DNA of 45,376 nucleotides from Candidatus Stahliibacteriota bacterium (GTDB taxonomy: Bacteria > Hydrothermota > UBA3072). A program made the position numbers and the translations under genes. The notes below the pieces were generated by a model. The model searched no databases and was not told the DNA's origin. It worked only from the letters and a program-made list of their open reading frames with translations. Location of the stretch: positions 1-45,376 of the forward strand of contig DAOVFB010000002.1 in the NCBI GenBank assembly GCA_030668705.1. Reading direction: 5' to 3'. Below, in pieces: positions 6,673-45,376 of this stretch; positions within the stretch are counted from its first letter, which is position 1, and the number at the start of each line of letters is the position of its first letter.

Positions 6673-7076
6673 AATGGAAATTATGTAATTATATTTTTTT
6701 CGCAACCCCCCTAATTAATAATCTATATCTTTAATTCAATCTCCCACAAGGGTCACAAAAGAAGATCAGCCACAGAGGCACAGAGAACACAGAGAAGAGA
6801 TTTTGTTTTGCAGGAAGGAAGATTAGACACAGATTTACACAGATATCAACTGATTAACTACTAAATCCTAAACCCTAAAACCTAAGACCAAACACCTAAC
6901 AATGCCACAGAGACACAGAGAACACAGAGAAGAATTTTTTTGTGTAAAAAACGCACACCACCAAAAATTAGCCACGGCAAACTCACGGTTAATTTTCAAT
7001 AAAGGTGATATGTGATAGAACTCAAGCAAGAAGACAAGCAGGTGATATGTGTTATGAGATAGAAGATGAATATGCA

Positions 7077-7123
7077 CGTATCCCTTATCACTTACCACTT
7101 ATCACATACCACATATCCCATAT
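7077..7123. repeat. 47-nt direct repeat, copy 1 (CGTATCCCTTATCACTTACCACTTATCACATACCACATATCCCATAT)
   Basis: Matches 7581-7627 at 46 of 47 positions by hand alignment (mismatch at 7083/7587). Confidence 0.9.
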
Positions 7124-7580
7124 CACCCTACGAACCCAACGAACCCTATGAACTCAATAAACCCAGAACACACCACCCAAGGAAATGAAACCGCAGATAA
7201 ACGCAGATAGATATGAATAAAAGACACACACCACCAAAGGGTTATGCCACGGTAAACTCACGGTTATTTTTTAATAAAGACACACACCACCAAATCCTAA
7301 ATCCTATATCCTAAATCCTAACCCCTGAATTAGACACAGATTTACACTGATATCAACTGATTAATATAAACTAAGAACACTGAACTCAGAACTAAATTTT
7401 AGACACAGATTTACACAGATTTGAACTGATTTTCATTCAAAATTTATAATTCATAATTCAACATTAGAAACAATAAACCCAAGACCTAAAAGCTGGACGC
7501 TCGACGCAAGGGACGCTATGAACGCAACAGACGCAATAGACGCAATGGACGCTCGACTCTCGACTAATTCCCACATATCA

Positions 7581-21867: not shown

Positions 21868-21895
21868 ATGTTAACATGCTATTCTTTAATGTCAA
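21868..21895 (-). promoter_or_regulatory. Promoter of the GWxTD operon: TTGACA-N16-TAACAT, 6 nt before ATG; -35 lies within the 3' end of the regulator gene
   Basis: Reverse complement TTGACAttaaagaatagcatgtTAACATaagaatATG. Confidence 0.7.
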
Positions 21896-23222
21896 GTGAA
21901 CCTAAATCCAAACTCTTTAGCTTTCGATACAGGGTCGAGGGATGGACACCCAGAAGGTCTGCAGCCTCTTTTTTCTTTCCCCTCGAAATCTTTAAAGCCT
22001 TTATAACCGCTTGTCTTTCAAGAAATTCAAGGTTTAATGACCCGGACAACTCTTTCCTATTGGTATTTTTAGGGAAGGAGTCTTTATCAATTATATCGCA
22101 ATCTTCCAGTACTATCACTCTCTCGAGAAGATTTTCTAATTCTCTTACATTTCCCTTCCAATCATATTCGAAAAGTGTTTTCATTGCCTCATCAGATAGT
22201 TCCTTCCTTTTCATATTCAGTCTTTTTGATATCCTTTCGATAAAATGTTCTACAAGAAGCGGGATGTCTTCTTTTCGCTCGCGAAGAGGCGAAACACAAA
22301 TTGGTATTACATTCAAACGATAGTAGAGATCATCTCTAAATTCTCCTTTTTCAACTAACTCTTCAATATTCCTATTAGTTGCAGATATTATTCTAACATC
22401 AACATGTTCTGGTTTTGTATCTCCGAGGGGGGTAAATTCCATTGTCTGAATTGCCCTGAGGAGCTTTGGTTGAAGACCCAGAGGAAGAGTGCTTATTTCA
22501 TCAAGAAATAAAGTTCCTCTATTTGCAACCTTGAACAGGCCTTTCTTATCCTTATCTGCACCTGTAAAGGCTCCCTTCTTATATCCGAACAATTCTGATT
22601 CCAGTAGTTCAGATGGGAATGCAGCACAATTTATAGGGACAAATTTCCCTACTCTACTTGAATTATAATGCAAAAGATTTGCAACCAGTTCTTTACCCGT
22701 CCCACTCTCTCCTGTAATAAGAACCGGAGAATCAGTAACAGCAACCTTTTCAATCTTTCTCTTTATATCCTCAATCTTCTCGCTCTTGCCAATAAGTTCA
22801 AACTCTTTAAGCTTCTCCCTCCTGAGGTTTACATTCATTTCTTCAATTCTTGCTTTTTTCAGCGCTTTCCTCAAACGCAATAATAACTCAGCCATCCTGA
22901 AAGGCTTTGTTATGTACTCAGAAGCACCCCCTCTAATAGCCTCAATCGCTGATTCCACTGAAGAGTAAGCCGTTATCAATATAACAACAACACCAGGATC
23001 TTTCTCCTTGCAGTACTTCAATACTTCCATCCCCGAAGCCTCAGGCATTTTTATGTCGGTTATTACTGCATCGTAATTCCCCTCTCCAAATTTTTCTATC
23101 GCTCCAATTGGATTACAAAATACGTCCACACTATAACCTTCTTCCAGGAGACCCAGCTTGATTACTTCAAGGAGATTCCTTTCGTCATCTATTACGAGAA
23201 TCCTTTCTTTCACATCCTTCAT
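21879..23222 (-). CDS. Sigma-54-dependent response regulator, NtrC/PilR family
   Basis: Receiver ILVIDDERNLLEVI...VITDIKMPEASGMEVL; AAA+ GESGTGKEL, ELFGYKKGAFTGADK, VDVRIISATNRN; C-terminal HTH KKKEAADLLGVHPSTLYRKLKSL. Confidence 0.95.
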   Translation of the reverse strand: MKDVKERILVIDDERNLLEVIKLGLLEEGYSVDVFCNPIGAIEKFGEGNYDAVITDIKMPEASGMEVLKYCKEKDPGVVVILITAYSSVESAIEAIRGGASEYITKPFRMAELLLRLRKALKKARIEEMNVNLRREKLKEFELIGKSEKIEDIKRKIEKVAVTDSPVLITGESGTGKELVANLLHYNSSRVGKFVPINCAAFPSELLESELFGYKKGAFTGADKDKKGLFKVANRGTLFLDEISTLPLGLQPKLLRAIQTMEFTPLGDTKPEHVDVRIISATNRNIEELVEKGEFRDDLYYRLNVIPICVSPLRERKEDIPLLVEHFIERISKRLNMKRKELSDEAMKTLFEYDWKGNVRELENLLERVIVLEDCDIIDKDSFPKNTNRKELSGSLNLEFLERQAVIKALKISRGKKKEAADLLGVHPSTLYRKLKSLDLGSLDIKE

Positions 23223-24718
23223 ATTGTAATCCTGAATTTAGTACCCTTGTTTAATTGACTGTCAACCTTACAATCCCAGCCGTGTAACTCTATAATCTTT
23301 TTTACAATAGCAAGTCCAAAGCCAAATCCATCATTAAAACGAGAATAGAATGGAGAGAAAATTCTCTTTATATCCTTTTCAGGTATCCCACAGCCCGTAT
23401 CTTCCACTCCGATAACAATCTTCCCGTCTGTATGGCAATTAAAAATTAGTTGTCCTCCGTTTCTCATTGCCTTAAGGGAATTCGTACCAAGATTAAGGAG
23501 TGCACTTCTCAGAAGTGCCTGGTCTGCTTTTATTTTTATAGTATCACTAACTCTATTTTCGATGCTAATATTATCATCGAAATACTTGCTTTTCTTAAGT
23601 AATATTTCTACTTCTCCACAGAGGTCACGCAGATGAACCTCCACTGGATTAATTTCTAAACCCCTGGTAAAATCCAGAAAGTTCAGAACCAATCCATCCA
23701 GATGGTCAGACTCCTCTATAATTAACCTTTTAAGGCGTCTGTTCTTATCAAAGTATTCTCCTTTCTCCACATCAAATAACTCAGCTGAAGCCCTTATCGA
23801 AGACACAGGGTTTCTGACACTATGCGCAAGGTTTGCAGCAAATTGTCCAATGGTAATTAGCTTCTCACGCATTTGTATTTCCTCTTCACGTTGCTTTTCC
23901 AGAGTTACATCATTAATCAATAAAATAGTTCCCTGTCCCTGGTGTAATTCATTTCTTCTAATCCTATAAATCCTATCCCGAAAATCAATCTCCGCTTCTT
24001 TTTTTTCATCGGAAAATACCTTCTCCAGCGAGTCATAGAAAGGACCAGGTAAAATTCTGTCAATATACTTACCCGGCTCTAAATCATCATCAAGTAAAAT
24101 CGAAGCTATTTCATTACTCCAGACAATTCTTCTCTTATCGTCAATGGTTAGAATTCCATAATCAATGGCTCCTAATATATCACCTGTGGTAACTCTCAAT
24201 CTAATCATTTCCCTCCTAAATCTTTCAACAACAAAAGAGGAAAGAGCAGCAGTAAACAAAAAGGATAGGGAATAAATGATATAATTCAGCAAAACATCTG
24301 GCAGGGAAGGAACCGGAGGCAAAGTAATCAGCACAAGACGCTCAGGTATATAACCGGGGAATACAAGACAAATCAACCCATAGAGTAAACCAGAGTAACC
24401 AGCTGTAATAAAAGAATCAAGAGGAGCAAGCAAATAAGCGGAAAGGACTATGAAAGTAAAATAAAATGGCGCAAAAGGACTATATACGCCACCGGTAAAG
24501 ATGATAAATATAGAAAGATAGGTAGAATCGATAAGGATATTGAAAAGCTTTATTTCCTTCTGAAGGGTACGAACGAGAATTTCATCAATAATAAAAAGAA
24601 GTAAAAAAATTAATAAAGGGAATAAACTCCCCCCCTCCTTAATAAAGAAAATAGTAATACCCAGGACAGAAATAAAAAGAACGGTCCGGTAAAGAAAATA
24701 TCTACTGAATCGGTTCAC
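23219..24718 (-). CDS. Membrane PAS sensor histidine kinase, PilS-like
   Basis: N-terminal TM helices; H-box FAANLAHSVRNPVSSIRASAELF; ATPase GVEDTGCGIPEKDIKRIFSPFYSRFNDGFGFGLAIVKKI. Confidence 0.9.
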   Translation of the reverse strand: MNRFSRYFLYRTVLFISVLGITIFFIKEGGSLFPLLIFLLLFIIDEILVRTLQKEIKLFNILIDSTYLSIFIIFTGGVYSPFAPFYFTFIVLSAYLLAPLDSFITAGYSGLLYGLICLVFPGYIPERLVLITLPPVPSLPDVLLNYIIYSLSFLFTAALSSFVVERFRREMIRLRVTTGDILGAIDYGILTIDDKRRIVWSNEIASILLDDDLEPGKYIDRILPGPFYDSLEKVFSDEKKEAEIDFRDRIYRIRRNELHQGQGTILLINDVTLEKQREEEIQMREKLITIGQFAANLAHSVRNPVSSIRASAELFDVEKGEYFDKNRRLKRLIIEESDHLDGLVLNFLDFTRGLEINPVEVHLRDLCGEVEILLKKSKYFDDNISIENRVSDTIKIKADQALLRSALLNLGTNSLKAMRNGGQLIFNCHTDGKIVIGVEDTGCGIPEKDIKRIFSPFYSRFNDGFGFGLAIVKKIIELHGWDCKVDSQLNKGTKFRITI

Positions 24719-43736: not shown

Positions 43737-44443
43737 TGGATAGGAATAAAGTCTGGAAAGAAGTTCGATCCTGGTTAGTGGCTATCGGATTCCTTCTCTT
43801 CCTTCGTGGGTTTATCATTCAAACATTTCATGTCCCTTCGGGTTCAATGGAGCATACCATCCTGATAGGTGATTTCCTTATTATTAACAGATTGAAATAT
43901 GGAGTAAAACTTCCATTCACTGATCGGTATCTCATAAAAACAGCAAGACCTAAAAGGGGCGACATCATCGTATTTCGTTACCCAATCCAGAAGAGAGGAA
44001 TAATGACCACTAACTTTGTCAAAAGATGTGTAGCCATCGAAGGTGACACAGTATATATAAAACACAAACAATTATATATAAACGGGAAACAGGAAGAGGC
44101 GGATTTTGTATTATTCATAGATCAAAAAGAATATCCACCTCTTGATCTGGATAAAGATACCTTCCAAAAATTATGGGAGAGAAGAAAGCTCACTCGATAT
44201 CCCTATGTCAGAGATAATTTTGGACCCATTGTAGTTCCTAAGGATTACGTTCTTGCGTTAGGTGACAATCGGGACAATTCTGATGATTCCCGATTCTGGG
44301 GCCCTGTCCCTGTTGACTATATCTCGGGAACCCCAATGTTTGTATACTGGTCCTGGAGACCAAATATCTCTTTAAGTAACCTATGGAGGAAAATACGCTG
44401 GGAAAGAATAGGGAAAATATTCTCATGCCCTCCGGAGTTGTGA
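43736..44443 (+). CDS. lepB: Signal peptidase I
   Basis: FHVPSGSMEHTILIGDFLIINRLKYG; RGDIIVFRYP...FVKRCVAIEGDTV; LGDNRDNSDDSRFWGPVP. ATG overlaps the secA TAA (TAATG). Confidence 0.95.
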   Translation: MDRNKVWKEVRSWLVAIGFLLFLRGFIIQTFHVPSGSMEHTILIGDFLIINRLKYGVKLPFTDRYLIKTARPKRGDIIVFRYPIQKRGIMTTNFVKRCVAIEGDTVYIKHKQLYINGKQEEADFVLFIDQKEYPPLDLDKDTFQKLWERRKLTRYPYVRDNFGPIVVPKDYVLALGDNRDNSDDSRFWGPVPVDYISGTPMFVYWSWRPNISLSNLWRKIRWERIGKIFSCPPEL

Positions 44444-45138
44444 TAAATAGAAAAAATCTACTCATATTTGATTTAGATGGGACAATAATAAATGTATTCG
44501 GGTGCGGCAGGAAAGCATTGGATACAACTATGAGGATAATGTATGGAATAAAGGGGGCTGGGGAAAAACTGGATTTCTCTTCATCCACTGATTATGGCGT
44601 TTTCTTAAGATTAATCGAACAGTTCAACCTAAATGAAATTTTCTTTAATAGAATTGAAGAATTCTATTCTATCTATTCCAAGGAACTCAAAGAAGAGATA
44701 GAAAAGAATGCTGGCTCAAGACTTCTGCCTGGCTTAACCGAACTGCTTGATTACTTCTTCCAGGAACCATCGTTCTATCTTGCACTTGCCACCGGAAATA
44801 TGAAAGTTGGAGCAAGAACAAAATTGGCCCACTTCGGGCTCGAGGAATATTTTCCGGTGGGTGGATTTGGGGACCACGCAAAGAGTAAAAAAGATGTTAT
44901 CTCCACCACATTCCAAAAAGCAAGTGAATTCTATGGGGAAAAATTCAAAAATGATGAGGTCTTTGTTATAGGTGATACCACAATGGATATAGATGCAGCA
45001 AAGAACTTTGAATTTCATTCCATTGCAGTCGCCACAGGATTCGAGGAAAAAGAAAAACTCATTCAGGCTAATCCCGATTGGCTATTTGACAATATCTCAT
45101 CTACCTCTGAATTCTTAAAAGTCATAAGTAATCTTTAG
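44425..45138 (+). CDS. HAD-superfamily hydrolase (phosphoglycolate phosphatase-like)
   Basis: LLIFDLDGTIINVFG; LALATGNMKVGARTKL; VFVIGDTTMDIDAAKN. Confidence 0.88.
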   Translation: MPSGVVINRKNLLIFDLDGTIINVFGCGRKALDTTMRIMYGIKGAGEKLDFSSSTDYGVFLRLIEQFNLNEIFFNRIEEFYSIYSKELKEEIEKNAGSRLLPGLTELLDYFFQEPSFYLALATGNMKVGARTKLAHFGLEEYFPVGGFGDHAKSKKDVISTTFQKASEFYGEKFKNDEVFVIGDTTMDIDAAKNFEFHSIAVATGFEEKEKLIQANPDWLFDNISSTSEFLKVISNL

Positions 45139-45276
45139 CTAATTTAGTTCCTGACTCAACCAAATTTCTCCTTTTACATTTAAATTTTCCCTTATATCCT
45201 AACTTTAATGGGGGAAGGTTAGAGGAATATTGTTGCAATAAAAAGTCTAAAAAGTTCAGCCTATGAACGAGTAAAG

Positions 45277-45304
45277 AAAAGTGTGACATTCATGTCACAC
45301 TTTT
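45277..45304. promoter_or_regulatory. Perfect 13-bp inverted repeat AAAAGTGTGACAT-TC-ATGTCACACTTTT (activator site or terminator)
   Basis: Arms are exact reverse complements with a 2-nt centre; about 75 bp upstream of a sigma-54-like element. Confidence 0.8.
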
Positions 45305-45352
45305 AGACCCTCAAGAATTCTTAAGGAGTTACCTATCAGTGAGTTAGTTTTT

Positions 45353-45368
45353 TGGCACAAAATTTGTA
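45353..45368 (+). promoter_or_regulatory. Sigma-54-type -24/-12 promoter element TGGCACAAAATTTGTA
   Basis: TGGCAC-N5-TTG(T)A keeps the GG and TTG at canonical spacing; only the -12 C is T. Confidence 0.6.
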
Positions 45369-45376
45369 CTATATTT

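Follow-up and report, generated by a model that had tools for sequence, protein, structure and literature searches.

Features of the locus

The window, i.e. the whole stretch of DNA that was analysed (45,376 nucleotides), is the complete contig G000:C93. An inverted repeat and a sigma-54 -24/-12 element lie at its right end, downstream of a HAD gene, and a type IV pilus cluster with a pair of regulatory genes is encoded further to the left. The features considered are as follows.

21879-23222, minus strand: PilR/NtrC-like enhancer-binding protein (EBP) of the type IV pilus cluster, with a receiver, an AAA+ domain carrying GAFTGA and a Fis HTH; a possible regulator of the site, but not the favoured one
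23219-24718, minus strand: histidine kinase partner of the PilR-like EBP (HisKA, HATPase_c), assigned from domain matches
44383-45138, plus strand: HAD-family hydrolase, last gene of a secA-lepB-HAD string; it adjoins the control region on the upstream side and is not taken as part of it
45235-45300, plus strand: 66-bp segment including the dyad, 94% identical to G000:C11:6852-6917; on C11 the segment stops at a truncated gene and lacks a promoter
45281-45300, no strand: dyad GTGTGACAT-TC-ATGTCACAC, a putative upstream activator site (enhancer) for an EBP of the NtrC family; A/T flanks extend the repeat to 45277-45304
45309-45326, no strand: second palindrome CCTCAAGAATTCTTAAGG, imperfect and placed between the dyad and the promoter
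45352-45368, plus strand: predicted sigma-54 -24/-12 promoter TTGGCAC-AAAAT-TTGTA (TTGGCACAAAATTTGTA), from the pattern match, rpoN in the genome and the alignment with the C70 and G004 L242 promoters

The inverted repeat and the sigma-54 element

The exact 13-bp inverted repeat described in the initial annotation is present at 45277-45304 (AAAAGTGTGACAT-TC-ATGTCACACTTTT), with arms at 45277-45289 and 45292-45304 that are 100% complementary. It is the only perfect repeat with arms of at least 13 bp and a spacer of at most 10 in the whole window, compared with 0.03 expected from first-order Markov simulations. For the dyad motif GTGTGACATNNATGTCACAC, with up to three mismatches allowed, 0.00 occurrences were expected from shuffles of the window. 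The dyad can also be read as TGT-N12-ACA half sites. This gap is among those reported for Desulfovibrio, where the EBP motif groups include TGT/ACA half sites 9, 11 or 12 bp apart (PMC4641369). The second palindrome was seen neither beside the further dyad copy on C11 nor between dyad and promoter in G004.

The sigma-54 element was likewise found as annotated: TGGCACAAAATTTGTA (45353-45368) differs from TGGCAC-N5-TTGCW by a single mismatch, TTGT in place of TTGC. Its -24 GG (45354-45355) and -12 G (45366) are exactly 10 bp apart (GG-N10-G), and the distance of about 75 bp to the dyad centre holds when measured to the -12. TTGGCACAAAATTTGTA was the best-scoring intergenic -24/-12 match in the sequence examined; the match alone is not significant, with 0.63 expected by chance in a window of such size. 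Genome-wide, the pattern with at most one mismatch gave 10 forward and 21 reverse matches versus 24 and 28 for a reversed-pattern control. Since there is no enrichment over this control, sigma-54 pattern matches alone are no evidence. Most of them fall inside genes, and a few are intergenic and well placed. The well-placed candidates (window 45352-45368, C70:1675-1691, C95:19673-19689 and L242 1657-1673) all carry TTGT, not TTGC, at -12. The gene rpoN, which the initial annotation had wished to see confirmed, was detected on contig C67 (Sigma54_DBD, E=9.3e-47).

The window ends with ...AAAGAAAAGTGTGACATTCATGTCACACTTTTAGACCCTCAAGAATTCTTAAGGAGTTACCTATCAGTGAGTTAGTTTTTTGGCACAAAATTTGTACTATATTT at position 45376, 8 bp past the promoter, and the transcription start is predicted at about 45378, just beyond this end. 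Because the contig stops here, the gene that the promoter would drive lies beyond this record. A second copy of the HAD gene, 96% identical, was found on contig C171 (G000:C171:1-872 of L139, corresponding to window 44297-45169). On its upstream side, C171 has exactly 140 bp in common with the window; downstream of HAD the two diverge. From reading the translations, the HAD gene is followed there by a small secreted-looking gene and then by queA and mnmE; neither dyad nor promoter was found in this region. The DNA downstream of the HAD gene is variable, and the C171 copy is either a strain variant or a duplication. Contigs C10 and C22 overlap by 141 bp, and overlaps of 140/141 bp look like an assembly with k=141 in the presence of strain variants. 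Related repeats are common to the intergenic region 6769-7505 of the window and to C171 (L139 2498-2842 and 7274-7434).

The related locus in another genus

The decisive comparison was made with G004, a genome of a different genus in the same family. Its locus L242, on the minus strand of contig C14, has the order EBP ORF, three TGACAT-NN-ATGTCA cores, sigma-54 promoter TTGGCACGATTTTTGTT, GGAGG and small gene. A dyad-symmetric site thus recurs in three copies at the same kind of promoter, and the nearest of them shows identical spacing: from the start of the core to the first T of the promoter it is 68 bp both at L242 and in the window, the two loci on which this argument is based. The two further cores are located at -134 and -155. 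The flanks of the three copies differ, and the ATG of the target gene is 53 bp from the first base of TTGGCACGATTTTTGTT. In the contigs read, which cover about a quarter of G004 and about half of the relative G002, the core occurred three times in 451 kb of G004, always at the L242 promoter, and 0 times in 827 kb of G002. No pilA was found in this part of G004. The motif of the window has outer G/C bases that are absent from the G004 copies; for this reason, G004 was first missed by pattern searches.

The L242 dyads directly follow the EBP gene. Its ORF comprises at least 860 residues, the start being lost at the contig edge, and a profile search identified TPR, GAF, Sigma54_activat (E=2e-64) and HTH_8. 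Because the same sequence and spacing are found in G004, with an EBP gene adjacent and the core absent elsewhere in the sequence read, the dyad is best explained as an EBP enhancer and not as a terminator or a chance repeat.

The target gene at L242 is a 66-residue ORF that starts hydrophobic and contains a 14-residue repeat twice in identical form (GGPNDGGGFIDELK). Next to it are a 64-residue ORF and then a PAS sensor kinase. For the 66- and 64-residue ORFs no match was obtained in Pfam and NCBIfam. L242 is a possible peptide-signalling module.

The regulator and the pilin promoters

The initial annotation had interpreted the repeat as an NtrC-type activator site and as the likely target of the PilR-like regulator encoded in the window. 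The first part is upheld by rpoN and by the spacing in G004; the assignment to PilR is not. By its domains, the PilR-like protein is a complete EBP. It remained below every cut-off of the curated equivalog models listed, including NtrC and AtoC, so that its name is based on the position of its gene within the pilus cluster.

In the rival reading this protein acts at the dyad, and the next gene would be that of the major type IV pilin, pilA, found on contig C109. In Geobacter and Pseudomonas, transcription of pilA is driven by PilR together with RpoN (PMC2725144, PMC6058289), and the protein of the window has the GAFTGA motif. Compared with PilS-PilR/RpoN control of pilA in Geobacter sulfurreducens and Pseudomonas aeruginosa, the window likewise holds a PilS/PilR-like pair and type IV pilus genes, and its genome encodes RpoN as well as a pilin operon that is preceded by a sigma-54-like promoter. 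This promoter, on C70 (TTGGCATGGAATTTGTA), stands 25 bp ahead of the ATG of the operon, which consists of pilin-like genes, and a GGAGG lies between. Among 912 chunks of own sequence, it was the closest to the window promoter TTTTGGCACAAAATTTGTACTATATTT (score 17, next 12), and 22 of 27 aligned positions are alike. Furthermore, pilA1 of G002 is preceded by an element somewhat like the window promoter. Contig C109 (L148) begins with GAGGTAAT-ATG, only eight bases before the ATG of the 147-aa PilA; of the four pilin-like genes found, this pilA alone lacks its upstream DNA. It remains a candidate for the downstream gene. Downstream of it, L148 contains repeated, REP-like palindromic units (GCACGAATAAATTCGTGCC).

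Against this, the dyad was not found upstream of the C70 pilin-like operon or of G002 pilA1 and pilA2; it is not common to the pilin promoters examined. A sigma-70 promoter (TTGGAA-17-TATAAT) is another possible reading of the sequence preceding G002 pilA1. Upstream of the C70 operon there is only a loose GTGTG-N9-CACAC, which was rejected as a shared site because the inner ACAT/ATGT that the G004 copies define is missing and the spacing differs. No 141-bp overlap of the C10/C22 kind joins C109 and C93, and pilA is not adjacent to the HAD gene in G002. In G004 the dyad is tied to a different EBP and to a target that is not a pilin but a small repeat-containing peptide gene. The recognition helix of the L242 EBP, ISRRHLYRLLKK (NISRRHLYRLLKKFNI), differs from that of the PilR-like protein, VHPSTLYRKLKS (GVHPSTLYRKLKSLDL). 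Hence, PilR as the activator is not supported, because the G004 dyads belong by position to the TPR-GAF EBP, the recognition helices differ and the pilin promoters lack the dyad. Control of C109 pilA by the PilR-like protein through this site is therefore unlikely.

EBP genes often adjoin their own target promoters (PMC2725144). On contig C95 (L026, minus strand), the gene of an NtrC-type response regulator (EBP) is followed by the palindrome CGGGTAAATTTTACCCG, the sigma-54-like promoter GTGGCACAGAAATTGTA and a gene. This is a second predicted unit of EBP, dyad and promoter, with the same layout but a different palindrome. The activator of the window site is probably the counterpart of the TPR-GAF-AAA+-Fis EBP of L242, and only with small probability the PilR-like protein.

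Terminators and dispersed repeats

The repeat could also be a (bidirectional) intrinsic terminator of the secA-lepB-HAD transcript, its proximity to a promoter being incidental. It lies 139 nt after the HAD stop, its RNA folds with -18.2 kcal/mol (z -5.1), and the form AAAA-stem-TTTT is also seen in several hairpins of G002. With these A and T flanks and its place behind a coding sequence it resembles rho-independent terminators. It differs from them in the short, interrupted T-run, as only four T follow the stem before AGACC. An intrinsic terminator would have a G+C-rich stem with a run of T behind it; the terminator scan did not call the repeat, whose tail is TTTTAGACC. The terminator-like hairpin after C109 pilA (AAAAGGGGACGGACATCCGTCCCCTTTTTTTT) is far stronger, and the dyad copies on C11 and in G004 have no T-run. 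Nor would termination explain why the exact sequence and its spacing to the promoter are kept in another genus. We regard a terminator as improbable.

Within its own genome, the palindrome recurs once, at C11:6898-6917. This sole further copy has no sigma-54-like site nearby on either strand. The similarity between window and C11 stops at the palindrome. What directly follows on C11 is the 256-residue C-terminal end of a secretion-tagged surface protein (L094, 6912-7676), which has 1008 residues in G003; the remainder of the gene was not found in the own genome assembly. The C11 copy looks like an orphan left by a rearrangement, as judged from sequence. At least one copy of the dyad is thus not a working enhancer, because it lacks a promoter and abuts a truncated gene.

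The palindrome might instead mark one end of a small repeat, mobile or dispersed, that came to lie near a promoter by accident. This could account for the 66 bp shared with C11, which end at the palindrome beside a gene remnant. It is more improbable still: the genome has just two copies, an exact copy was found in none of 146 relatives, no rve-family transposase was found, and the three G004 copies stand with differing flanks at one sigma-54 promoter, as a regulatory site and not a transposon end would. The end of an IS or MITE, suspected from the C11 copy, was also pursued in plasmids, phages, rve transposases and 100 relatives, with nothing convincing. The best plasmid matches, between traA and an Arc-family gene, were of chance-level likeness (E=0.05), and Rfam contains no family for the window end or for C11.

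In 257 Gb of public genomes, the exact 18-base motif had four matches, with about 3.7 expected by chance according to our own estimate. In IMG/VR, the exact palindrome GTGTGACATNNATGTCACAC was present once in each of 20 viral stretches (L047-L066), mostly between genes. By our own estimate this is more than chance, and it is possibly an unrelated viral operator. No link to sigma-54 was seen in the contexts of these 20 stretches.

Discussion

We interpret positions 45277-45368 as a sigma-54 control region with an NtrC-family upstream activator dyad, reading rightward out of the contig, and assign a probability of about 0.8 to this reading. The two motifs and their exact spacing are present, motif and spacing are conserved in another genus, and rpoN is encoded in this genome. 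Binding, activation and the identity of the activator are predictions. RNA polymerase with RpoN would bind TTGGCAC-N5-TTGTA and wait there as a closed complex. A dimer of an NtrC-family EBP would bind the palindrome TGTGACAT-NN-ATGTCACA, whose centre lies about 61 bp upstream of the promoter, counted to its first T. The bound EBP would then oligomerise, reach the polymerase by DNA looping and open the promoter at the expense of ATP; the gene so switched on would start just past 45376.

Such a control region is a known kind of system. As in other NtrC-family activator sites with sigma-54 promoters, a palindrome with TGT/ACA half sites is found upstream of GG-N10-G(C), rpoN is present, and an EBP gene stands beside the related locus. 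In contrast to these systems, the -12 element is TTGT rather than TTGC, in the window and in the related promoters, and the activator is a predicted one. The regulator was probably misassigned in the initial annotation.

A broader proposal must be considered doubtful: small secreted peptides may be controlled by a TPR-GAF sigma-54 activator, with the dyad marking its regulon, possibly as a sigma-54 peptide-signalling circuit that has the window end as a second output.

The locus provides a concrete candidate for a sigma-54 activator site whose motif and spacing are conserved between genera of a little-studied lineage. Attention is moved from PilR to the TPR-GAF activator. Furthermore, standard sigma-54 promoter models may under-call in this clade, because the well-placed candidates carry TTGT at -12.
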